Origin: an uncultured beta proteobacterium | GTDB taxonomy: Bacteria > Pseudomonadota > Gammaproteobacteria > Burkholderiales > Rhodocyclaceae | DNA length: 21,094 nt | Reading direction: 5' to 3' | Assembly: GCA_903932755.1 (NCBI GenBank) | Contig: CAIZHL010000425.1 | Span: 1 to 21,094, forward strand | Part shown: piece after piece, positions 1 to 18,304 of the stretch | Layout: each line of letters begins with the position of its first letter | Numbering within the stretch: position 1 is the first letter of the stretch | Notes under the pieces: generated by a model | Database searches by the model: none | Told to the model about the DNA's origin: nothing | The model's input: the letters and a program-made list of their open reading frames with translations, nothing else | Translations under genes and position numbers: made by a program

Positions 1-1695
1 GAAGCATCCAACTGGCATCCCCTGACCTGGCTGTCCTACCTCATCGATTCCTCGCTGTTCGGTGCCTGGGCCGGCGGCTACCACCTGACCAGCGTGGCCT
101 GGCACCTGGCGACGACGCTGCTGGTCTACCTGCTGCTGCGTCGCCTGAGCGATGAGATCTGGCGACCGGCTCTTGTGGCGATGCTCTTCGCGGTCCATCC
201 GCTGCACGTCGAATCGGTGACCTGGGTTTCCGAGCGCAAGGACGTGCTGTGCGCCTTTTTCGGCCTGCTGGCCATGCACGCCTACATCGCCTATGCCAGG
301 GCGCCGTCGCTCGGCCGCTACCTGCTGGTGGCGGCGGCCTTCGTCTGTTCCCTGCTGTCCAAGCAGATGCTGGTGACGCTGCCCGCCGTCCTGCTGCTGC
401 TGGATTTCTGGCCGCTGCGGCGGCTGGATCCGTCCAACTGGCGGCAGCGGGTGCTGGAAAAGCTGCCCCTGCTCGGATTGGCCGCGGGCGCCGCTTACCT
501 GACCGTGCTGGCGCAGTCGGAAGGTGGTTCGGTGCGTTCGCTGGAACAACTGCCGCTGCTGACGCGGCTGGCCAATGCGATCTCGTCCTACGGCATCTAC
601 CTGCAAAAGCATCTGTGGCCGTCCGATTTGAGTTTTTTCCAGGTGATGCGTCCGCCGTCGATGCTTTGGGTCGGACTGGTCTTCGTCCTGGTTGTCGCCG
701 TGGCCGCCCTGGCATGGCGCCTGCGCGAGCGCGTGCCGGCCATGCTGGTCGGTTGGCTGTGGTTTCTCGGCACGCTGGTGCCGGTGATCGGCATCGTGCA
801 GGTGGGGGACCAGGGCTGGGCCAGCCGCTACAGCTACTTCCCGTCGATCGGCCTGTTCCTGATGCTGGCCTGGTTGCTGCCGGTGCCCGATTTCGCGACG
901 GCGCGCCGCCAGGCTTTCGTGCTGGTCGCTGCGACGCTCGCGGTCGTCATGACGTTTTCGGTGCGCGCCTTCATCGAGGCCGGCTACTGGCGCAATTCGG
1001 ATACCCTCTTCACGCGCGCCATCAGCCTCGATCCGGGCAATTTCGTCGGCCATACGCTGCTGGCCTCGATCTATGCCCAGCGCGGGGCGCGGCAGCAGGC
1101 CGAGTATCACGCGCTGGAGGCCGAGCGGACGTCCGGCGGGCCCGGCGGAGCGACCGCCAACGCGCTCGTCGCACTGTCGCGCGTGCTGATGGAAGTCGGC
1201 CGTTTCGAACAGGCGCACGATGCTCTGGAGCGCGCGCGGGTAATCATTCCAAAGTCGCCCATGCTGCACTACAACCTAGGCACGCTGGAACTGATGCGCG
1301 GGATACCGCTGGCGTCGCTGCCGCATTTCGATCAGGCGATCGCCCTGAGCCCGGAGTACTCCGAGGCGCTCAACAATCGTGGTGTGGCGCTGGTTCGCCT
1401 CGGCCGCCTCGAGGAGGGCGTGGCGGCCCACCGGCGTGCGATCGAGACGGATCCCTACAACTATCAGGCGCAATTCAATCTCGGTGTTGCACTGGCCGCC
1501 GCAGGCCGCAGCGGCGAAGCGCTGGCGGCCTTCGAGGCCTCGGCCGCGCTGGTGCCGCGCGACATCCGGCCGAAGCTGAAAATCGCGGCGCTGCTGCGCG
1601 CAATGGGACGTCACGACGAAGCCCGTGCCGTGTATCAGGCCATACTGGCGATCGAGCCGGCGAACGCTGCGGCGCGCCTGGAAGCTTCACGCTAG
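1..1695 (+). CDS. Membrane glycosyltransferase-like protein with C-terminal TPRs (5' end missing)
   Basis: The reading frame is open from the first base, so the N terminus lies upstream of the window. The visible 564 residues begin with SNWHPLTWLSY, and HPLHVESVTWVSERKD follows near residue 65. These motifs are typical of bacterial TMTC-like (GT-C fold) proteins annotated as O-mannosyltransferase or TPR proteins. Several hydrophobic membrane segments follow up to about residue 330. The C-terminal 220 or so residues are TPR-like, for example HYNLGTLELMRG and AQFNLGVALAAAGRSGEALA. Such proteins are thought to transfer a lipid-linked sugar on the outer face of the membrane, with the TPRs binding a partner or acceptor. 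Acceptor and sugar cannot be read from this sequence. It converges with the cytochrome gene on the other strand. Family call fairly sure, activity inferred. Confidence 0.8.
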   Translation, partial: EASNWHPLTWLSYLIDSSLFGAWAGGYHLTSVAWHLATTLLVYLLLRRLSDEIWRPALVAMLFAVHPLHVESVTWVSERKDVLCAFFGLLAMHAYIAYARAPSLGRYLLVAAAFVCSLLSKQMLVTLPAVLLLLDFWPLRRLDPSNWRQRVLEKLPLLGLAAGAAYLTVLAQSEGGSVRSLEQLPLLTRLANAISSYGIYLQKHLWPSDLSFFQVMRPPSMLWVGLVFVLVVAVAALAWRLRERVPAMLVGWLWFLGTLVPVIGIVQVGDQGWASRYSYFPSIGLFLMLAWLLPVPDFATARRQAFVLVAATLAVVMTFSVRAFIEAGYWRNSDTLFTRAISLDPGNFVGHTLLASIYAQRGARQQAEYHALEAERTSGGPGGATANALVALSRVLMEVGRFEQAHDALERARVIIPKSPMLHYNLGTLELMRGIPLASLPHFDQAIALSPEYSEALNNRGVALVRLGRLEEGVAAHRRAIETDPYNYQAQFNLGVALAAAGRSGEALAAFEASAALVPRDIRPKLKIAALLRAMGRHDEARAVYQAILAIEPANAAARLEASR

Positions 1696-1741: not shown

Positions 1742-2380
1742 CTAGCGCCGGCGCTTGCGGCCGGTTTGCGGCGCCACCTGGTCCTGGGCGGCAAAGAAAT
1801 GGGCGATGGCGGTGAGGTCGTCGTCGCTAAGATCCTTGTAGGCACCATCCATCAGGAATGGAAACTTGCGCTCACCCGACTTGAAGGCCAGGGTCTGGGC
1901 GACCAGATAAGTCATGTCCTGCGCCGCCATCAGCGGAGCTTCCTTGTCCGAATCGCGGCCGTTGTCGAGGTGGCAGTCGGCGCAGCGATTCTGGTAGAGG
2001 GTTTCGCCGCGGGCGACGAGTTCGGGTTTGGTTGCCGACTTCGGACGCTGGGCCTTCTGTTCCGCATAGTGTTTGGCCAGCGGTGCGACATTGGCCGCGG
2101 CGATGTCGCGGTGCGTTTTCACATTGGTCGAGCGCTTGCCTTCGCGAAAGGCGTTGAGCATGTTGCCCAGCAATCCTTCCGCCTGACCGTTGATATGGGG
2201 CACTCCGGGCTTGAAACCGAGGCCATCGCTGCCATGGCATTCGGTACAATCGGCGATTGCACCTGCCGGCGCCGCGGCCTGCGCGAAACTGGCTGCGGAA
2301 CCGAACAGCAACGCCGCGGTCACTAGGCAGTTGGCGAGACGGACTTTCCCGGTGCTTGCAGTTGGCGAATTCTTTTCCAT
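1742..2380 (-). CDS. Diheme cytochrome c, c4-like
   Basis: A 212-residue exported protein. The N terminus has a signal peptide (hydrophobic stretch about residues 16-30, ending SFAQAAA). Two heme c sites are visible: CTECH (45-49) and CADCH (133-137), each starting a class I cytochrome domain, as in cytochrome c4 and c553-type diheme carriers. The role would be periplasmic electron transfer, probably towards a terminal oxidase. In domain 2 a likely Met ligand is present in FLMDG (Met177). In domain 1 the usual Met between the GKR segment and the last helix is not evident, the local sequence being THRDIAAANVAP. The C terminus is basic (GRKRRR). The gene is divergent from the maturation cluster. 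No good ribosome binding site precedes this ATG. The specific partner is unknown. Confidence 0.85.
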   Translation of the reverse strand: MEKNSPTASTGKVRLANCLVTAALLFGSAASFAQAAAPAGAIADCTECHGSDGLGFKPGVPHINGQAEGLLGNMLNAFREGKRSTNVKTHRDIAAANVAPLAKHYAEQKAQRPKSATKPELVARGETLYQNRCADCHLDNGRDSDKEAPLMAAQDMTYLVAQTLAFKSGERKFPFLMDGAYKDLSDDDLTAIAHFFAAQDQVAPQTGRKRRR

Positions 2381-2477
2381 GACGATGACCCAGAACGAAA
2401 GAGTGGCGACATTTTACCGGCTGGCGGAGTCGAGGTGCGCGATGCGGGGCACCGAAGCCGAGGGTTGATATCAGGAT
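2381..2477. promoter_or_regulatory. Divergent promoter region, cytochrome c / ccm cluster
   Basis: This 97-bp gap separates the minus-strand diheme cytochrome from the plus-strand maturation cluster, so it should hold both promoters. On the minus strand, TAAAAT (plus-strand 2411-2416) is a 5/6 match to a -10 box at a sensible distance from the ATG, but no clear -35 is seen. For the plus strand I see no convincing promoter. AGGA at 2473-2476 lies only one base before the ATG at 2478, so the ribosome site is poor. Confidence 0.3.
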
Positions 2478-3293
2478 ATGGAACAACGGGAACTGCAGAT
2501 TCTCTGGGTGGCGGTAGTGGCCTACGTGCTTTCCGGCGTGACGGCGATTTTCGGCGTGGTGCTGAAAAAATCGCCGCATCGCTTCGTCCTCGGCAGCCTG
2601 GTCCTGGGCCTCATATTGCTCAGTGTTTCCCTGGGCTTGCGCTGGGAACGCCTCGGGCATGGCCCGTTCATCACCATGTTCGAAATCCTGGCGAGCAATG
2701 TCTGGAGCTTCGGCCTGATCTTCGCCTTCGCCTACTGGCGCTACCCGGCTATCCGCGGCACGGCGGCGGTGGTGATGCCGATCATTTTCATCATGCTGGG
2801 CTGGATGACCTTGTCCAGCACCCACGAAGGCCATTTCCCGCGGACCTTCCGCACGCCCTGGCTGTACATCCACGTCGGGCTGTCGAAGGTATTCCTTGGC
2901 ACGGTGCTGGTGGCGGTGGGCATGGCCGGGGTGATCCTGCTGCGCCGCGCCGGGGTCGGCGTTTCGCGGTTCGCCGGTCTGCCGGCGGACGAGCGCCTCG
3001 ATGATCTGGCCTATCGCTTCATGGCGCTGGGCATCATTTTCCAGACCCTGATGCTGATTTCCGGTGCGATCTGGGCGCAGGACGCCTGGGGCCGCTACTG
3101 GGCCTGGGATCCGCTGGAGACCTGGTCCTTCATTACCTGGATCATGCTGGCATTCGCCTTGCATTGGCGTTTGACCATGAAAAGCTCGCCCGTGGTCGGT
3201 TCCTGGATGATTCTTGCGGTTTTCGTCTTTGCCTTCCTGACATTCTTCGGCATCCCCTTCATTTCCGACTCGCCGCACAAGGGCGCGGTATGA
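2478..3293 (+). CDS. ccsA: CcsA-type cytochrome c biogenesis / heme-handling membrane protein
   Basis: A 271-residue polytopic membrane protein. The tryptophan-rich WWD segment is WGRYWAWDPLETWSFITW (204-221). The WDPxETW form matches CcsA/ResC (System II, often labelled CcsB in databases) rather than CcmC. Two flanking His fit the conserved heme ligands: His132 in YIHVGLS and His229 in ALHWRL. The family binds heme and presents it at the outer face of the membrane for attachment to apocytochrome c. No CcsB/ResB partner is next to it. Instead it heads a run that continues to ccmFGHI. The stop overlaps the next start (ATGA, 3290-3293), which suggests translational coupling. An in-frame TGA at 2466 fixes the start at 2478. 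The family call is firm, but whether it works as CcsA or stands in for CcmC is inference. Confidence 0.85.
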   Translation: MEQRELQILWVAVVAYVLSGVTAIFGVVLKKSPHRFVLGSLVLGLILLSVSLGLRWERLGHGPFITMFEILASNVWSFGLIFAFAYWRYPAIRGTAAVVMPIIFIMLGWMTLSSTHEGHFPRTFRTPWLYIHVGLSKVFLGTVLVAVGMAGVILLRRAGVGVSRFAGLPADERLDDLAYRFMALGIIFQTLMLISGAIWAQDAWGRYWAWDPLETWSFITWIMLAFALHWRLTMKSSPVVGSWMILAVFVFAFLTFFGIPFISDSPHKGAV

Positions 3294-4687
3294 GGCTGGC
3301 CGCCATGCTGTCGCCGCAGCGCCACGAGGCGGGGGCGCAACTGGCGCTGGGCTGGCTGGTGCTGGCAACCGCCGCCGTGGCGGCCTCGGCGCTGTTCGCC
3401 ATCCTCATCGTCATGGCGCGCGTTCCGGGCCTCGGCGCCTTGTTTCCGGGAACGGAGTTCTATCGCGTGGCGCTGACACTGCATGTCAATCTGTCGCAGT
3501 GGGTCTGGTTCATGGCCTTTGCCGGCATGCTCTGGAGCCTCGCTGCGCGGCGGGCGCCGGGCGGCTGGGGCTGGACGGCGCTGGCGCTGGCGGCGCTGGG
3601 CGCCTTGCTGATGGCAGCGTCTCCGGCGCTGGGCGCAGTGCGCCCGCTCATGAGCAATTACATGCCGGTGCTGGACAACCCGGTATTCCTGACGGGACTG
3701 GCGATTTACGGGCTGGCGGTGCTGATCAGCGCCTCGGCGGCGCTCGCGGATTGGCCATGGCGGCCGACAGGGCAGGAAAGCGGCAGCGTTCGCCGTATCG
3801 CCGGCGCCGACTTTTCACCGGAGTCGCTCGACGGCGTGCTGCGGCTGGGTTTGTGGCTGGCGGCGGCGGTGGTGCTGACCGCGCTGGCGGTACTGGCGGT
3901 GACCTGGTGGCAGGTGTCGGCATCTTTCTCCGGTCATGCGCTGTTCGAAACCCTGTTCTGGGGGCCGGGCCATATCTGGCAGTTCTGCCTCACCACCTTG
4001 ATGCTGCTGGCCTGGCTGGGGCTGTGCCCGCCGGCACTGGCGCTGCCGTCGGCGCGCCGGCTCAAGTGGCTGCTCTTGCTGGGCGCGGCACCCGGTTTGG
4101 CCGCCCCCGTGCTGCTGGTGCTGGGACCTGCCAGCGGCGAATATTTCGTCGCCTTCACCCGGTTGATGCAATGGACCAGTTGGGAAGTGCCGCTGCTGCT
4201 GGGCGGCATCCTGCTGGTGCTGCACTGGCGCATGAAGGCGGTGCCGGCCGCCGGATTTTCGCTGTCGCTGCTGCTGCTGGTATGCGGCATCGTGCTGGGT
4301 ACGATCATCGACGGCCAGACGACCCTGGTGACCGCGCATTATCACGGCACGATCGGCGCCGTGACGCTGGCCTTCATGGGGCTGACTTACGCCGTCCTGC
4401 CGATCCTGGGCCATGTCATGCCGCCGCCATCGCGCGTCGGCTTGCAGTTGCGCCTGTATGGCTATGGCATTCTGATGATGATGTCCGGTCTGGCCGGAGC
4501 GGGGCTGATGGGCGCGCCGCGCAAGATGGCGGGCAATGTCGGCGTCGAGTTCAGCGTCGAAGCGGTGTCGCGGGTGTTCCTCGGCCTCGGCGGCAGCCTG
4601 GCCACGGCGGGCATCCTGATGTTCCTTTACTTGGTGCTGCGCCAGATGTGGCCCGGCGTTTCGCTGCGGGTGGCGCGCCATGGCTGA
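3290..4687 (+). CDS. Heme-copper oxidase subunit I-like protein lacking the helix VII CuB ligands
   Basis: A 465-residue protein with about 12 hydrophobic segments. It shows subunit I landmarks: LHVNLSQWVWF (His65, helix II low-spin heme ligand), FWGPGHIWQF (His228, helix VI CuB-ligand position) and TAHYHGTIGAV (His350 and His352, helix X). The helix VII His-His pair is absent. The cbb3-type AGPHHLHY position reads LGPASGEY here, with Ala281-Ser282 in place of the two His. It therefore probably keeps two hemes b but cannot build a normal CuB centre, which argues against oxygen or NO reduction. The start at 3290 overlaps the ccsA stop, and the 3' end overlaps the next gene by 8 bp. The context suggests a part in cytochrome c maturation, perhaps heme reduction. 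Homology is clear, function is inference. Confidence 0.75.
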   Translation: MRLAAMLSPQRHEAGAQLALGWLVLATAAVAASALFAILIVMARVPGLGALFPGTEFYRVALTLHVNLSQWVWFMAFAGMLWSLAARRAPGGWGWTALALAALGALLMAASPALGAVRPLMSNYMPVLDNPVFLTGLAIYGLAVLISASAALADWPWRPTGQESGSVRRIAGADFSPESLDGVLRLGLWLAAAVVLTALAVLAVTWWQVSASFSGHALFETLFWGPGHIWQFCLTTLMLLAWLGLCPPALALPSARRLKWLLLLGAAPGLAAPVLLVLGPASGEYFVAFTRLMQWTSWEVPLLLGGILLVLHWRMKAVPAAGFSLSLLLLVCGIVLGTIIDGQTTLVTAHYHGTIGAVTLAFMGLTYAVLPILGHVMPPPSRVGLQLRLYGYGILMMMSGLAGAGLMGAPRKMAGNVGVEFSVEAVSRVFLGLGGSLATAGILMFLYLVLRQMWPGVSLRVARHG

Positions 4688-5240
4688 GCCCTCCACGATT
4701 GCGGCGCGACGCGGGCGGGATCTGCGCGTTGTCGGCCTGGTGGTAACGGTGCTGCTGGTGGCGGGCGGCGGCTATCTGCTCGACCGGTGGATCAACGACA
4801 GCGGCGAGCCCGGACTCAAGGCGCATGTGGACCAGAAGCGCAAGGAAGAAATCGACATCCGCTTCAAGCAGGGCGTGATCATGCTGCATGCCAAGGAATA
4901 CGAGCACGCCATGACCGCCTTCAGCCGTGTCCTGGATCTGGCGCCGGGCATGCCGGAAGCCCATGCCAACATGGGATTCGCCATGCTGGGCCAGAAGCGC
5001 TACCGGGAAGCCCTGGATTTCTTCGATCGTGCCACCGAGATCAATCGCAATCAGTTGAATGCCTATTTCGGGATGGCCGAGGCACAGGAAGGTTTGGGCA
5101 ACTATCGTGGCGCACTGGAGGCGATGGAGGCCTGGCTGCACCGGGCCAAGCCCGACGATCCTTTCCGCCGACGCGCGGAAGCGGGAGTCTGGGAATGGCG
5201 GGACAAACTCGCAAGGGACGCCAAGCCCGCCGCCAAGTAA
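4680..5240 (+). CDS. Membrane-anchored TPR protein in the ccm cluster
   Basis: A 186-residue protein with one N-terminal membrane segment (about 17-36, VVGLVVTVLLVAGGGYLL). About three TPR units follow at 57-88, 90-122 and 123-155, with the typical A-x-GxA and P/N-x-A-Y patterns (EAHANMGFAMLG, NAYFGMAEAQEGLG). The topology predicts a periplasmic TPR domain, as in the chaperone part of CcmI/NrfG that holds apocytochromes. It starts inside the end of the oxidase-like gene, so the two are probably co-translated. ccmF follows after 66 bp. A second TPR protein, CcmI, is encoded at the end of the cluster, so this one may hold a different client or scaffold the upstream pair. No known gene name is supported. 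Confidence 0.75.
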   Translation: MAEPSTIAARRGRDLRVVGLVVTVLLVAGGGYLLDRWINDSGEPGLKAHVDQKRKEEIDIRFKQGVIMLHAKEYEHAMTAFSRVLDLAPGMPEAHANMGFAMLGQKRYREALDFFDRATEINRNQLNAYFGMAEAQEGLGNYRGALEAMEAWLHRAKPDDPFRRRAEAGVWEWRDKLARDAKPAAK

Positions 5241-5306: not shown

Positions 5307-7283
5307 ATGTATCCGGAAATTGGTCATTTTTCATTGATCCTGGCCCTGGCGGTGGCGCTGGTGCAAGGCGTCGTGCCCATCGTCGGCAGCCTGCGCGGCG
5401 ACATGCGCCTGATGGGCATCGCGCGGCCCGCTGCCGCAGCCCAGTTCCTGGTGATGCTGACCGCGTTTGCCTGCCTCGTCATCTCGTTCGTGGGCAACGA
5501 TTTTTCGGTGCTTTACGTCGCGCAGAACTCGAACACCATGTTGCCGACCTTCTACAAGGTGGCGGCGGTGTGGGGTGGTCACGAAGGCTCGATGCTGCTC
5601 TGGGTGTTCACCCTGTCGGTGTGGACCGTCGCGGTGGCCGCCTTCAGCCAGCGCCTGCCGCTGGAGACGGTGGCCAATGCGCTGGCGGTCATGGGACTCA
5701 TCACGGTCGGCTTCGTGATGTTCCTCTTGTTCACTTCGAATCCCTTCGATCGCCTGATACCCGCGGCCGTTGACGGGCGTGACCTCAATCCGCTGCTGCA
5801 GGATCCGGGCATGGCGATCCATCCGCCCTTGCTCTACATCGGCTATGTCGGCTTTGCCGTGGCCTTTGCCTTCGCGATTTCGGCCCTGATTTCAGGTCGC
5901 CTGGATGCGGCCTGGGCGCGCTGGTCGCGGCCGTGGACCACGGTGGCCTGGCTTTTCCTGACATTGGGAATCGCCATCGGCTCGTGGTGGGCGTATTACG
6001 AACTGGGCTGGGGCGGCTGGTGGTTCTGGGATCCGGTGGAGAACGCCTCCTTCATGCCCTGGCTGGTCGGCACGGCGCTGATCCATTCCCTGGCGGTGAC
6101 CGAGAAGCGCGGCGGATTCAAGAACTGGACGGTGCTGCTGGCGATCATGGCCTTTTCGCTGTCGCTGCTGGGTACCTTCCTGGTGCGCTCAGGCGTGCTG
6201 ACCTCGGTGCACGCCTTCGCCACCGATCCGAAGCGCGGCATATTCATTCTGGGTTTCCTGGTCGCGGTGATCGGCATCTCGCTGCTGCTGTATGCGTGGC
6301 GCGCGCCGTCGGTCGGCATGGGCGGCAAATTCGAGCTGTGGTCGCGCGAGACCTTTCTGCTGGTAAACAACGTGCTGCTGGTGGTCGCCGCAGGTGCGGT
6401 ATTGCTGGGCACGCTTTACCCGCTGTTCCTCGATGCGCTGGGCCTGGGCAAGGTCTCCGTGGGGCCGCCGTATTTCGAGGCGGTGTTTGCGCCGCTGATG
6501 GCGCCGCTGGTGTTGTTGATGGGCCTCGGACCCTTCGCCCGCTGGAAGCAGGCGCGCTTCATCGATTTCTGGCCGCGACTGCGCTGGGCGGTGGGGGTCG
6601 CCGTGCTTGCAGCAATTGCGTTGCCCTTGGTGCTGGGGCGCTGGTCTCCCCTGCTGGCCTTCGGTTTGTTGCTGGGCTTCTGGGCCGTGGCGTCTAGCGT
6701 TACCGTGCTGGCCCAACACCTGCGCGAGCGCGGCGGCGATGCGTCTTTCGGCCAGCGCCTGGCGTCGGTGCCGCTGGCCAAATGGGGCATGCTGACCGCC
6801 CATGTCGGCATCGGCGTGTTCATCTTCGGCGTCACCCTGGTCAAGGGCTACGAGACGGCGAGCGAAGTGAAAATGAGACCGGGTGAAACGGCTTCTGCGG
6901 GCGGCTACGATTTCAAGCTGATCGAGATCGGCGAGCGGCGCGGGCCGAACTACATGGCGGTGCGGGCGACGATGAACGTCACGCGCGACGGCAAGCCGGT
7001 CACCGTGATGCATCCGGAAAAGCGCATGTATTTCGTACAAAAGATGCCGATGACCGAAGCGGCCATCGATACCAACCTGTTTCGCGATCTGTATGTTTCG
7101 CTGGGCGAACCGGTGGACGATGTTTCGTGGATCGTGCGCGTCCAGCACAAGCCGCTGATCAGCTGGATCTGGGGCGGTTGCCTGTTGATGGCGCTCGGTG
7201 GATTGCTGGCGGCGTCGGATCGCCGGTACCGGATCCGGCAGCGCGAGGATGTCGCGGACACTCGTCCCGCTGTGACGGTTTAA
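5307..7283 (+). CDS. ccmF: Cytochrome c heme lyase subunit CcmF
   Basis: A 658-residue polytopic protein, close to the usual CcmF length of about 650. The WWD signature WGGWWFWDPVENASFMPW lies at 235-252. All four His important in CcmF can be placed: His172 (IHPPLLY), His261 (ALIHSLAV), His302 (TSVHAFATDP) and His499 (LTAHVGIGVF). CcmF takes holo-CcmE heme, reduces it and, with CcmH/CcmI, ligates it to the CxxCH of apocytochrome c on the periplasmic side. A GGGGG tract lies just upstream of the ATG, giving an acceptable ribosome site. ccmG follows 9 bp after the stop. The gene looks intact. ccmABCDE are not in this window. Confidence 0.97.
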   Translation: MYPEIGHFSLILALAVALVQGVVPIVGSLRGDMRLMGIARPAAAAQFLVMLTAFACLVISFVGNDFSVLYVAQNSNTMLPTFYKVAAVWGGHEGSMLLWVFTLSVWTVAVAAFSQRLPLETVANALAVMGLITVGFVMFLLFTSNPFDRLIPAAVDGRDLNPLLQDPGMAIHPPLLYIGYVGFAVAFAFAISALISGRLDAAWARWSRPWTTVAWLFLTLGIAIGSWWAYYELGWGGWWFWDPVENASFMPWLVGTALIHSLAVTEKRGGFKNWTVLLAIMAFSLSLLGTFLVRSGVLTSVHAFATDPKRGIFILGFLVAVIGISLLLYAWRAPSVGMGGKFELWSRETFLLVNNVLLVVAAGAVLLGTLYPLFLDALGLGKVSVGPPYFEAVFAPLMAPLVLLMGLGPFARWKQARFIDFWPRLRWAVGVAVLAAIALPLVLGRWSPLLAFGLLLGFWAVASSVTVLAQHLRERGGDASFGQRLASVPLAKWGMLTAHVGIGVFIFGVTLVKGYETASEVKMRPGETASAGGYDFKLIEIGERRGPNYMAVRATMNVTRDGKPVTVMHPEKRMYFVQKMPMTEAAIDTNLFRDLYVSLGEPVDDVSWIVRVQHKPLISWIWGGCLLMALGGLLAASDRRYRIRQREDVADTRPAVTV

Positions 7284-13233: not shown

Positions 13234-13253
13234 GGTGTTCATGGGGTGAGTTG

Positions 13254-13907
13254 ATGGTGATGGCCGGAATCAAAACGTACTTCAGCGGTTGGCGGATTGC
13301 ACTGGCGCTTGTCCTTGGCGCGTGCATCGGGTCTGCCAATGCCGGACCCGCCGAAGACTATGCCGCCGGAATGGTTTCATACCAGCGCACGGACTTTTTT
13401 GTGGCGGTACCGCTGTTGCGCAAGGCGGCCGATGCCGGACATATCGAGGCCGCGGTAGTCCTCGCAACGATCTATGATGGCGCGGAGCAGGATGAACAGG
13501 CAGTCATCTACTTCAGGAAGGCAGCCGACGCGGGCAGTGCGGAAGGCATGTACGGGCTGGGCAACATGCTGGCCGCCGGGGAGGGCACTGCGAAAGATGT
13601 CGTTGCGGCCAAGGCTCTCTTTGTCAAGGCGGCCGATGCAGGACACGTCACCTCCGTGCAACTCCTGGCTCAAGCTTATCTTCGCGGCGAATTGGGCATT
13701 CCCGAGGAACAGCGCAAGGGTGCGGAGGCGCTGAAGTGGATCACGGCCGCCGCCGACTTGAATTTCATTCCCGCACTTGAGGCGTTGCAGCAAGCCTATC
13801 TTTCGGGTGACTACGGACTGACGGTGGATCCTGTGAAGTCTGAACAGATTAAACAGAAAATCATCAGCCTCAAACCGGTTCCGCCGAAAAAACGTCGAAG
13901 GGGGTAA
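13254..13907 (+). CDS. Exported Sel1-repeat protein
   Basis: A 217-residue protein. The signal peptide has a hydrophobic core (about 13-26, WRIALALVLGACIG) and ends near GSANAGPA. Sel1-like repeats follow: AAVVLATIYDGAEQ, GMYGLGNMLAAGEGT and SVQLLAQAYLRGELG, each with a KAADAG-type helix end. The C terminus is very basic (PPKKRRRG). Such proteins are periplasmic scaffolds. It begins a run of exported redox proteins and ends 5 bp before a monoheme cytochrome gene, so it is probably in one transcript with it. GGTGA (13245-13249) sits well for ATG 13254. A TTG at 13251 and an ATG at 13260 are other possible starts. It is clearly related in type to the Sel1 protein at 9629, but the repeats differ in spacing. 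Confidence 0.82.
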   Translation: MVMAGIKTYFSGWRIALALVLGACIGSANAGPAEDYAAGMVSYQRTDFFVAVPLLRKAADAGHIEAAVVLATIYDGAEQDEQAVIYFRKAADAGSAEGMYGLGNMLAAGEGTAKDVVAAKALFVKAADAGHVTSVQLLAQAYLRGELGIPEEQRKGAEALKWITAAADLNFIPALEALQQAYLSGDYGLTVDPVKSEQIKQKIISLKPVPPKKRRRG

Positions 13908-13912
13908 GCATT

Positions 13913-14227
13913 ATGAGAAAAGGGACAATCGCATCAGCCATGTCGTTCGGGCTGGTCGTCTTCAGTCTTGCGCAGAACGCGCAGGCTATTGATTTGCAGC
14001 GGGGGCAGCGCCTTTACAACCAGCGCTGCGCCGGATGCCATGGCTTGACAGGGGTACCGACAATTCCGCAGGCGCCCAGTTTTGTCACCAAGGAGCGCCT
14101 GATGCAGCCGGATATGGTTCTTCTGCAGCGGGTGCAGATGGGAAAAAACAGTTGCCCGCCTTTCATGGGTTCGCTCAAGAACGACGAGATTCTTGATGTG
14201 TTGCAATACGCGCGGCAGATGCGCTGA
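13913..14227 (+). CDS. Small monoheme cytochrome c
   Basis: A 104-residue exported class I cytochrome. The signal peptide (about 1-25) ends at AQNAQA. The heme site is CAGCH (39-43). The usual sixth-ligand region, typically MPPF in such proteins, reads SCPPFMGSL here: Cys81 is at the usual Met place and Met85 lies four residues later. Either could bind iron, or Cys81 could do something else. The last helix (about 90-101) is normal. It would carry electrons in the periplasm, perhaps to or from the triheme protein encoded downstream. A G-rich ribosome site (AAGGGGG, about 13899-13904) precedes the ATG. The propeller gene begins 13 bp after the stop. Confidence 0.88.
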   Translation: MRKGTIASAMSFGLVVFSLAQNAQAIDLQRGQRLYNQRCAGCHGLTGVPTIPQAPSFVTKERLMQPDMVLLQRVQMGKNSCPPFMGSLKNDEILDVLQYARQMR

Positions 14228-14240
14228 GGGAGTCCGTCTG

Positions 14241-15308
14241 ATGCTGTTCTGGAATGCCCGTCGCAAGCTGATCCCCATCATTGCAGCGTTTGGTCTGCTT
14301 TCCGGGCCGGTACTGGCTCAGGGAACCGAGAAGGTGATCGACCGGTTCGAAACCGGCAACAACACCTATGTCCGTTCCCTGTTGCACGACAAGGCTGGAA
14401 ATTCGCTGTGGGTCGGCACCTCCGTCGGCGCAATGGAGATCGATCTCAAGACCGCCGCGCCGCGCAAGACATTCACCCGAAACGACGGCCTCGCCAACGA
14501 ATATGTTTTCGCCCTGGGCATCGACTCGCAGGGCTACACCTGGTTTGGCACCAACGCCGGCGGCGCATCCCGCTACAAGAACGGCAAATGGAAGACCTAT
14601 TTTCCGATGCATGGACTTGCCGACTACTGGATTTACTCCTTCGCCAATGACAAGAATGGAAATCTCTGGATAGGCACATGGGCCGGCGCCAACATGTTCA
14701 CCGTCAAGACCGGGAAGTTCACCACTTACGTCAAGGAACTGATCAACGAGTGGGTATATGGCCTCGGTGTCGATAGAGAAGGGCGTGTCTGGTTCGGCAC
14801 CGAAGGCGGTGTTTCGATGTACGACGGCAAGCGCTGGAAATCCTGGACCCACAAGGACGGGCTCGGTGCGGATAATCCGGCAGGACTGCCGACCAGTCCG
14901 AATACCGGCCTTGGCACCCGTTCGCGCCATGACCTGGCAACTGAAGCGCAGGGCATGGGTACCTACAATCCCAATTATGTGTTCTCGATCCTCGTCGCCC
15001 GAGACAACAGTATTTGGGCCGGTACCTGGGGTGGCGGCGTCAGTCGCTGGGACGGCAAGCGCTGGACCAGTTTGGCAACGAAGGACGGCCTGGCCGGCAA
15101 TATCGTCTATTCGATCGCCCAGGATGACAGTGGCGTTTTCTGGTTCGGCACCGACAAGGGGGTCTCGCGCTATGACGGCAAGACGTGGCGAACCATCGGT
15201 ACCAAGGACGGCTTGCTGGATGAAAACGTCTACGCGCTGGCGCTGACGCCTGGAGCGAACGTCTGGGCCGGGACGAAGCGTGGTGTAGTGAGGATAGCGG
15301 TCAAGTGA
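14241..15308 (+). CDS. Exported seven-bladed propeller protein (Reg_prop type), copy A
   Basis: A 355-residue protein with a signal peptide (about 1-26, ending PVLAQ). Seven blade signatures of the type LWxGTxxGxxRYDG are visible at about 56, 100, 142, 183, 258, 300 and 341 (e.g. RVWFGTEGGVSMYDG, SIWAGTWGGGVSRWDG). The repeat is that of two-component regulator propellers, normally the periplasmic sensor half of hybrid kinases, but here no kinase follows. An insert of about 35 residues lies between blades 4 and 5 (about 208-242) and ends with YNPNYV. Start 14241 has GAGGGAG upstream. Its stop overlaps the next start (GTGA), so it is coupled to copy B. Likely role is ligand or partner binding in the periplasm. 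The ligand is unknown. Confidence 0.85.
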   Translation: MLFWNARRKLIPIIAAFGLLSGPVLAQGTEKVIDRFETGNNTYVRSLLHDKAGNSLWVGTSVGAMEIDLKTAAPRKTFTRNDGLANEYVFALGIDSQGYTWFGTNAGGASRYKNGKWKTYFPMHGLADYWIYSFANDKNGNLWIGTWAGANMFTVKTGKFTTYVKELINEWVYGLGVDREGRVWFGTEGGVSMYDGKRWKSWTHKDGLGADNPAGLPTSPNTGLGTRSRHDLATEAQGMGTYNPNYVFSILVARDNSIWAGTWGGGVSRWDGKRWTSLATKDGLAGNIVYSIAQDDSGVFWFGTDKGVSRYDGKTWRTIGTKDGLLDENVYALALTPGANVWAGTKRGVVRIAVK

Positions 15309-16552
15309 ACTCCATGAAAACTCCTGAACTGAGAATCGGTCGGCTTGCGGCCGCACTGCTCGCACCTTGTGCTTTTTTTGCGGCGGGCGCCGCGATTTCG
15401 GCCGATGCGCCGAAACAGCCAGTCCCGGCAGTTGCTCCGGCAACCGGGACAGCGGCCAATGCGGCCCTGGGGGCAAATCACCCGCCGATCGCACAACCTG
15501 CACGTGAAGGCAAACTGACGGTAGATGACAAGGCGAAGTTCACGCATTTTCGGGTCGGCAACAAGAACGTCAAGTCCCTTTACAACGATGGTGGAGTGAT
15601 CTGGGTCGGCACTACCGGCGGTGTCGTGCGCTATGACACCAAGAACGACAGCTTCAAGCTCTTCGATACCAAGAACGGATTGCTGTCAAACGGCATGTTC
15701 TTCGTTGGCAAGGTCAAAGACAAGATTGCTGTCGGCACCTATGGCGGCGGGCTTTCCCTGCTCGATGAAAAAACCGGCAAGTGGAAGACCTACAACATCC
15801 CGGAAGGCCTCGGCGATGCATTCGTCTATGACGTGATTACCGCAAAAAATGGCGATATCTGGATCGCGACCTGGTCGGGGGCCAACCGCATCCGTGGCGG
15901 TGATCTGGACGATCGCAGCAAGTGGGATCTATATACCGTCGACAACACCAAGGGCGGCTTGCCCAACGACTGGGTCTATGGACTTGCAGAGGGCAAGAAC
16001 GGCGATATCTGGCTGGCGACCGAAGGCGGCATGGCGCGCTTCGCAAAAAACCGGTGGGAAAACTGGAATCACGCCAAAGGCATGGGTGCATCCTACGACC
16101 GGGTCAAGAAGGACATCGCCTTCAAAAGCGATCCGGGCAAGCAATCTGTGCATCACGCGAAACAGAAAGAGGAAATGGGTTTGCAGGATGTCGACGTAGC
16201 CTATAACCCGAACTACATTGTTGCTCTCGAGGTCGATGCCGCCGGACAGGTATGGGCCGGAACCTGGGGCGGAGGCTTGTCGAGATTTGATGGGCAGCGC
16301 TGGCAAAGCTATACGACTACCGAAGGCTTGCCCGGAAATCATGTGTTTTCCCTGCACCTTGATCCCAAGGGGGAACTCTGGATCGGAACCAACAATGGCC
16401 TTACCCGCTGGCAGAAAGGCAAGTTTGCCAAGGCGCTGACGACGGCCGATGGATTGTTTGCAAACAACATATTTGCCATGGCTTCCGCAGCGGATGGCTC
16501 ACTTTGGGTCGGCAGCTATGGCGGTGTTGCCCATTTGAGGCGGGGAAAATAG
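15305..16552 (+). CDS. Exported seven-bladed propeller protein (Reg_prop type), copy B
   Basis: A 415-residue paralogue of the preceding gene. A signal peptide (about 12-33) is followed by a Pro/Ala-rich stretch (about 36-68) that copy A lacks. Seven blade signatures lie near 99, 141, 184, 234, 315, 357 and 399 (VIWVGTTGGVVRYD, QVWAGTWGGGLSRFDG, SLWVGSYGGVAHL). As in copy A, an insert sits between blades 4 and 5 (about 258-298), but here it is charged and contains VHHAKQKE before the shared YNPNY. No kinase or output domain is present. The GTG start at 15305 overlaps the upstream stop; ATG at 15314 is an alternative start. A gap of 58 bp separates it from the triheme cytochrome gene. Fold call is strong, function unknown. 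Confidence 0.85.
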   Translation: MNSMKTPELRIGRLAAALLAPCAFFAAGAAISADAPKQPVPAVAPATGTAANAALGANHPPIAQPAREGKLTVDDKAKFTHFRVGNKNVKSLYNDGGVIWVGTTGGVVRYDTKNDSFKLFDTKNGLLSNGMFFVGKVKDKIAVGTYGGGLSLLDEKTGKWKTYNIPEGLGDAFVYDVITAKNGDIWIATWSGANRIRGGDLDDRSKWDLYTVDNTKGGLPNDWVYGLAEGKNGDIWLATEGGMARFAKNRWENWNHAKGMGASYDRVKKDIAFKSDPGKQSVHHAKQKEEMGLQDVDVAYNPNYIVALEVDAAGQVWAGTWGGGLSRFDGQRWQSYTTTEGLPGNHVFSLHLDPKGELWIGTNNGLTRWQKGKFAKALTTADGLFANNIFAMASAADGSLWVGSYGGVAHLRRGK

Positions 16553-18040: not shown

Positions 18041-18304
18041 ATGGATCAGTCTCGCCGTAACATGCTTAAGCTGGGCGCCGCCGCCCTGGCAATGATTCCC
18101 GTGGTTTCGATCGCCGCCAAGAACGATGCGATGCGCACATCGATGAAGTACAAGGATTCGCCCGAGGGCGACAAGACCTGTGCTACCTGCATTCAGTTCG
18201 TTCCGGGCAAGTCTGCTGCGGATATGGGCGGTTGCAAGATTTTCCCGGGCGACACCGAAGTTTCGCCCAAAGGTTATTGCGTGGCCTGGGCAAAGAAGGC
18301 CTGA
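18041..18304 (+). CDS. High-potential iron-sulfur protein (HiPIP)
   Basis: An 87-residue protein with a Tat signal (SRRNMLKLG, twin Arg5-Arg6) and cleavage probably near VSIAAKNDA. Four Cys fit the HiPIP [4Fe-4S] pattern: Cys47 and Cys50 (CATC), Cys65 (MGGC) and Cys80 (KGYC). The typical YKDSP and YCVAW segments are present. HiPIPs are folded and loaded in the cytoplasm, exported by Tat, and carry single electrons in the periplasm to reaction centres or terminal oxidases, mostly in proteobacteria. GGAG (18029-18032) lies upstream of the ATG. The gene stands alone: a 216-bp gap precedes it and a strong terminator follows. It may take electrons from, or run parallel to, the c-type cytochromes of the upstream cluster. 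Confidence 0.95.
   Translation: MDQSRRNMLKLGAAALAMIPVVSIAAKNDAMRTSMKYKDSPEGDKTCATCIQFVPGKSAADMGGCKIFPGDTEVSPKGYCVAWAKKA

Follow-up and report, generated by a model that had tools for sequence, protein, structure and literature searches.

Known systems and the locus

Subunit I of the heme-copper oxidases (HCO) and NO reductases (PF00115) has a fold of 12 helices, in which histidines of helices II and X bind a low-spin heme, another histidine of helix X binds a high-spin heme, and one histidine of helix VI forms the CuB site with a His-His pair of helix VII. The synthases of c-type cytochromes are other membrane proteins: CcmF/NrfE, which has a heme b of its own, in System I, and CcsBA, which consists of ResB and CcsA, in System II. 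Here we describe HCOL, a 465-residue membrane protein of the HCO fold without the helix VII pair, encoded within a cytochrome c maturation gene cluster on a stretch of 21,094 nucleotides (the window), positions 1–21,094 of contig CAIZHL010000425.1 of assembly GCA_903932755.1, from an uncultured beta proteobacterium of the Rhodocyclaceae. We propose, with a probability of about one half, that HCOL is a copper-free b-heme protein located at the CcsBA synthase, most likely passing quinol electrons to the synthase side.

The attachment of heme to cytochromes c requires ferrous heme. In the accessible parts of PMC10663686 and PMC6299221, what donates electrons to CcmF is said to be unknown, and CcsBA is thought to use its His pairs to help keep the heme reduced; no HCO-like partner of CcsBA is mentioned in them. 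For the heme of CcsBA, PMC6299221 gives a potential of -115 mV. HCOL shares with CcmF a gene cluster and, if our proposal is correct, a role as a membrane protein handling heme or electrons, but the two proteins belong to different families with different motifs, and CcmF is the synthase itself. The surroundings of HCOL also resemble the Uet (undecaheme electron transfer) cluster of Tenderiales and Gallionella: in genome G497, the genes upstream of HCOL code for a tetraheme cytochrome, a peptidyl-prolyl isomerase (PPIase), a 697-residue protein at the place of the porin, triheme cytochromes, two NHL proteins and an undecaheme (11-CXXCH) cytochrome, and the tetraheme, PPIase, triheme, NHL and 11-CXXCH genes are on the list that the accessible part of PMC10734462 gives for Uet. 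This likeness is one of gene lists and not of comparison with the named Uet proteins; Pfam recognises the tetraheme cytochrome and the PPIase of G497 (UetA and UetB in the Uet cluster), and finds no match in the 697-residue protein at the place of the porin (UetC). The contigs of the window's genome stop short of this part.

Fold and heme ligands of HCOL

The HCOL reading frame starts with an ATG at 3290. The Pfam COX1 model (PF00115) matches the protein with 35.0 bits, barely above its cut-off of 34.8, while neither the curated ccoN model nor any other NCBIfam model matches it (P0001 in our protein list) at E 0.01. Searching PDB sequences with HCOL or with its profile returned no oxidase either, so that a comparison of folds was needed. 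The predicted structure (pLDDT 88.7, pTM 0.90) has the 12 helices of HCO subunit I and has matches in the PDB; the output of VIA and Foldseek gives matched ranges without residue pairs, and the model holds no cofactors. The gene is under purifying selection (dN/dS of 0.12–0.27 in six pairwise comparisons), and no relative was found among plasmid records. One relative, P0077, comes from a named culturable bacterium, Azospira restricta.

The histidines that an earlier note, made from this DNA alone, had described as retained (H65, H228, H350 and H352) are invariant in the 118 members of the HCOL family that were aligned (three short fragments out of 121 proteins were excluded). In the alignment with COX1, H65 and H352 take the place of the helix II and helix X ligands of the low-spin heme, and H350 that of the helix X ligand of the high-spin heme. 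The same note had placed the lost pair at Ala281-Ser282. The pair is indeed absent at its place in 118/118 proteins, but that place is Leu275 and an adjoining gap, about six residues before Ala281-Ser282, according to both hhalign (98.5% against a set of true COX1 proteins, E 2e-15) and a joint alignment; the remapping leaves the copper-less conclusion unchanged. Within the whole stretch equivalent to residues 255–300, one protein of the 118 (P0073, at 286) has a His-His motif, which lies about 11 residues beyond where the pair would be. That conserved metal ligands might lie elsewhere, a possibility which the note had itself raised against its claim, was ruled out for the window's family by counting histidines: no other column exceeds 57/118, and therefore three conserved CuB histidines are not hidden in another part of the protein.

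The position of the cross-linked active-site tyrosine, four residues after the helix VI histidine (H+4), is occupied by Phe232, conserved in at least 90% of the family, where the part of PMC8756737 that is accessible lists Tyr for oxidases and Glu, Asn, Gln or Asp for NO reductases (NOR). That these copper-less proteins might be sNOR was considered and dropped, since sNOR is listed there with an active-site Asn, which HCOL does not have. HCOL further differs from oxidases in its surroundings, no COX2-like gene being recognised by Pfam among the genes of the window. Judging from these residues, a protein with neither the CuB pair nor the active-site tyrosine most likely carries out no oxygen or NO chemistry, and the retained positions predict that it binds two hemes, one of them a low-spin heme b with bis-His ligation.

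Genomic partners of HCOL: CcsA, ResB and a TPR protein

As the earlier note had pointed out, the HCOL gene overlaps its two neighbours. It shares 4 bp (ATGA) with ccsA, which ends at 3293, and 8 bp (4680–4687) with the gene of a TPR protein, and ccmF starts at 5307. These overlaps suggest that ccsA, HCOL and TPR are probably translated together.

The same neighbourhood was counted in 19 named loci from metagenome assemblies, where the genes are arranged as ccsA, HCOL, TPR, ccmF, followed by ccmG, ccmH and ccmI as far as the contigs extend. Each of ccsA, TPR and ccmF is present in 18 of the 19 loci, the absences being due to contig ends; ResB is found upstream in 18/19, either directly before ccsA or up to about 3.6 kb away, and its identity was confirmed by Pfam in the three loci tested. 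The setting within a ccm cluster, on which the earlier note relied, is less constant than the link to ccsA and TPR: G061 and G366 have the order ResB-CcsA-HCOL-TPR-redoxin and G267 has ResB-CcsA-HCOL-redoxin-TPR, with no CcmF, CcmH or CcmI within the stretches read. In G267, part of an undecaheme-like cytochrome also precedes ResB, where the contig ends. HCOL has three constant partners, CcsA, ResB and the TPR protein.

HCOL and TPR are separate in the window and in G061, G366 and G267, and they are fused into a single protein in P0093, P0098 and P0110, and in G497, G535, G379 and G510 (locus records L091, L110, L111 and L154). In P0093, P0098 and P0110, a hydrophobic stretch precedes the fused TPR part, which would place the latter in the periplasm if the usual topology of HCO holds.

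Upstream of ResB the gene content varies. In L014, L015, L016, L018, L021, L022 and L024, genes for a radical SAM protein and a DegT-type aminotransferase replace the undecaheme genes, and in L017 a 1016-residue reading frame with 24 CXXCH motifs (2063–5113) precedes ResB, at the place taken elsewhere by the undecaheme cytochrome.

Uet-type loci and the type of CcsA

Eight of the 19 named loci have an 11-CXXCH cytochrome, NHL proteins and triheme c7 cytochromes ahead of ResB. L110, L111, L114, L154, L155 and probably L058 are further Uet-type loci with HCOL. In the window's genome, another contig, C118, carries three reading frames with three CXXCH motifs each, NHL, an 11-CXXCH gene and a ResB which ends 435 bp from the contig edge. 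The query used found no other ResB in this genome (70% complete), which suggests that C118 probably adjoins the window on its left, although no read joins the two.

Twenty Uet-type regions were drawn, and 13 of them show both ResB and CcsA: HCOL is present in 2 and absent from 11. Adding L110, L111 and L114, which had been chosen for their HCOL, gives 5 regions with HCOL and 11 without, figures that do not measure a rate. We had considered HCOL as a requirement for the undecaheme cytochrome, and abandoned this idea on account of these 11 loci.

What distinguishes loci with and without HCOL was examined in 24 Uet-type loci, related by descent, of which 13 have HCOL and 11 do not. The similarity of their CcsA to that of the window is 1.01–1.46 bits per residue in the former against 0.49–0.94 in the latter, with no overlap, and the two groups are nearly separate by ResB (0.53–0.82 against 0.27–0.58). 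On the contrary, the undecaheme cytochrome (UetJ) does not separate them (p 0.45). Mapping the presence of HCOL on trees takes 2 changes with CcsA, 3 with ResB and 4 with the undecaheme cytochrome; 1, 1 and 2 of these, respectively, are imposed by well-supported branches. G061 and G366 cluster with the HCOL-free loci by their cytochrome and with the HCOL-containing loci by their CcsA. The presence of HCOL thus follows the type of CcsA and not the undecaheme cytochrome, which is support for a link with the synthase and not proof of it.

A wider set of copper-less proteins

Among 369 genomes sampled from the class, 47 have a match to the HCOL profile at E 1e-20, as do 34 of 399 sampled from the order. 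HCOL is not a single case: it belongs, as one branch, to a wider set of copper-less proteins. The more distant matches of the profile form set B (120 listed proteins, of which 119 were counted, P0131 being left out). All 119 keep the same four histidines, which indicates that the copper-less pattern is more than chance, and the helix VII pair is absent at its aligned place in all of them and in the 29 remote loci inspected. A His-His motif is found at places equivalent to 278–286 in 11/119 proteins, which puts it 3 to 10 residues beyond the expected position of the pair, and position 285 is a histidine in 109/119; another metal ligand site could exist in this segment of set B. Position 397, always Met in the window's family, is also His in most of set B.

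The neighbours of set B differ from those of HCOL: a cytochrome b-ferredoxin protein, weakly similar to ExtP but under the cut-off of that model, SCO1, CtaB or CtaA, and a small protein without Pfam match, perhaps FixH-like. A COX1 with a full CuB site is encoded beside the set B member in L056, L063, L066, L068, L071 and L112. The one from L071, which is the sole one aligned for that residue, has a Gln at H+4, the residue listed for eNOR. In L071 (1–7332), the full-site COX1, CtaB, SCO1, the cytochrome b-ferredoxin protein, the small protein and the copper-less HCO form an operon-like group, whose composition differs among loci.

The HCOL proteins linked to Uet-type genes in G497 and G535 have 41% and 40% identity, respectively, with the set B member of L071. 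In a tree of 71 rows rooted on full-site COX1, the synthase-linked proteins are mostly apart from set B. G366, G061, G510 and G147_53 are on long branches and their placement is unsure; the Uet-linked rows need 5 label changes, and P0130, P0132 and P0133, whose context is unknown, fall inside. The long branches and the 5 changes leave a single recruitment unproven.

The window's genome (603 contigs) has six COX1-type matches. Going by their motifs, the five besides HCOL are presumably an aa3-type subunit I with the His pair, a NOR-like subunit I, a cbb3-type fragment, a match on C185 and a fragment of a set B relative. The latter is on contig C566 (L006:109-498, L075), which also carries a ferredoxin-reductase gene.

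Proposed function and alternatives

The mechanism that we propose is the following. HCOL would sit in the membrane beside the ResB-CcsA synthase and the TPR protein, take electrons from the quinol pool, and hand them to the synthase side, either holding the heme iron in the ferrous state or feeding a thiol step. Such a supply would be most useful where many hemes have to be attached to each protein, as in the undecaheme cytochromes and the trihemes of Uet-type loci. The earlier note had suggested that an oxidase subunit was reused during cytochrome c maturation, to reduce heme or to pass quinol electrons. As regards the reuse, HCOL derives from HCO, lacks the CuB pair and is tied to cytochrome c synthesis by gene order, TPR fusions and the tracking of CcsA; its partnership with CcsA, ResB and TPR is fairly well supported. 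That it binds heme, is fed by quinol and reduces heme or thiols is what we infer from these data.

Several observations weigh against this proposal. The 11 Uet-type loci that have ResB and CcsA also lack HCOL by profile search, and among the 53 genomes with a match to the undecaheme cytochrome (40 from the class and 14 from the order, with that of the window counted in both), an HCOL match lies beside it on the same contig in five (G061, G366, G379, G497 and G535) and, by inference, in the window's genome as a sixth. Maturation can thus run without HCOL, which is an accessory rather than something required everywhere. The similarity of the TPR protein does not track HCOL (p 0.20, with 7 HCOL-free loci). 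The CcsA tracking may reflect shared descent, since the loci are not phylogenetically independent; the starred branches force just one change on the CcsA tree against two on that of UetJ, and G729, which has no HCOL, falls inside the HCOL-containing group of the CcsA tree. In Sulfuritalea-type ResB-CcsA-HCOL loci, other genes are inserted between ResB and ccsA. Last, set B is found in respiratory-type operons, a setting that fits respiration equally well.

The main rival explanation assigns HCOL to a Uet-type pathway, as an electron gate in the inner membrane that would connect the quinone pool with the periplasmic trihemes; its position among maturation genes would be incidental. An HCO fold with two heme positions would suit such a gate, as would the presence of HCOL in the Uet-type loci enumerated above and the cytochrome, PPIase and NHL genes upstream of it in G497; the respiratory operons of set B keep this explanation alive. 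However, HCOL tracks CcsA and not UetJ, it is encoded between ccsA and TPR and can be fused to the latter, and it is absent from the 11 loci already mentioned. We consider the gate rather unlikely.

It may be, instead, that HCOL is a heme carrier or a docking scaffold, which would hold heme at the old HCO sites and pass it to CcsA and TPR, or position these two proteins, with no redox work. The ccsA-HCOL-TPR order and the fusions are consistent with this. However, the buried bis-His hemes of known HCO are tightly bound, which does not suit a carrier. CcsBA, moreover, carries heme unaided in known systems, according to the accessible part of PMC6299221. This explanation seems improbable to us.

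Even less probable is that HCOL still has enzymatic activity, either at an active site of heme alone or through metal ligands from elsewhere. The invariance of H228 and H350 means that a high-spin-type heme pocket may remain, and in set B the histidines around position 285 might form another metal site; but in the window's family this position is Tyr in 88/118 proteins and His in 6/118, a second or third conserved CuB histidine is absent, and the residue at H+4 is Phe. The least probable explanation is that HCOL senses O2, NO or the redox state of quinones and signals to the two-component system encoded after the cluster, in the window as in L114, L155 and L058, since a similar kinase and regulator pair follows the HCOL-free Uet-type loci L144, L145 and L147 and the fusion partner of HCOL is TPR and not a signalling domain.

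Returning to electron donation to CcsBA, a broader and more tentative reading, which we hold with somewhat less confidence than the proposal itself, is that a large copper-free HCO lineage became a di-heme electron handler, one branch of which would be a dedicated electron donor of CcsBA. It would be the first HCO-derived cytochrome c maturation factor, and would answer where the electrons for heme attachment come from in these bacteria. In our literature search, no title or abstract opening found names a copper-less HCO beside ccsA; this is a weak negative, subscription journals being mostly outside the coverage. That an HCO branch stripped of its CuB pair is tied to cytochrome c synthesis is surprising, and its predicted function is testable. 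If HCOL donates electrons to CcsBA, the question of what reduces the heme becomes directly testable, and maturation is linked to extracellular electron transfer loci. Where source records name set B proteins, the names given are cbb3-type or cytochrome c oxidase subunit I for some and hypothetical protein for others, despite the missing copper pair; surveys of respiration that are based on annotations may therefore overcount oxidases.

Other genes of the window

Table 1. Features of the window, with heme and copper ligand codons of HCOL
Positions	Strand	Feature	Basis and remarks
94..1695	+	TPR-rich membrane protein, 533-residue ORF	Pfam TPR; start uncertain near contig edge
1742..2380	-	diheme c-type cytochrome	CXXCH at 2248 and 1984; PF00034 47.3 bits
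2478..3293	+	ccsA, System II cytochrome c synthase subunit	PF01578 94.4 bits; TIGR03144 131 bits (below cut-off 187.6)
3290..4687	+	HCOL, HCO subunit I fold without helix VII CuB His pair	PF00115, model, PDB matches, invariant His
3482..3484	+	H65 codon, helix II, low-spin heme ligand position	118/118; aligned to COX1 helix II His
3971..3973	+	H228 codon, helix VI, sole CuB-site His left	118/118; aligned to COX1 helix VI His
4112..4114	+	L275 codon, place of first helix VII CuB His (second in gap)	hhalign, joint alignment
4337..4345	+	H350-Y351-H352 codons, helix X HxH, ligand positions of both hemes	118/118; aligned to COX1 HxH
4680..5240	+	TPR protein, N-terminal hydrophobic stretch (17-35) then TPR domain	Pfam TPR
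5307..7283	+	ccmF, System I cytochrome c synthase, NrfE-like	PF16327, PF01578; TIGR00353 760 bits
7293..7823	+	ccmG/dsbE, thioredoxin-like	TIGR00385
7810..8340	+	ccmH	PF03918
8337..9599	+	ccmI/cycH	TIGR03142, PF23892
10298..11824	+	sensor histidine kinase	HATPase_c, HisKA; similar genes in L114, L155
11688..13202	+	sigma-54 response regulator	Response_reg, Sigma54_activat; true start probably further in
13251..13907	+	Sel1-repeat protein	PF08238; order kept in L114
13913..14227	+	monoheme c-type cytochrome	PF13442, CAGCH
14193..16552	+	two Reg_prop beta-propeller proteins	PF07494; order kept in L114
16581..17270	+	triheme c7-type cytochrome	PF14522, three CXXCH; BLAST relatives among Uet-type locus trihemes

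Besides the ccm genes listed in Table 1, the same genome has a second ccmF on contig C92 (3830-5737, L109), 64% identical to that of the window and accompanied by ccmH and ccmI, which shows that it has another System I set. In L015, a reading frame of cluster 30 occupies the place equivalent to that of the first gene of the window, between ResB and ccsA. Reg_prop beta-propeller genes like those of the window are also found in L144, L145, L146 and L155. Downstream of the cytochrome genes, positions 18041-18304 code for a HiPIP-type iron–sulfur protein with a possible Tat signal.

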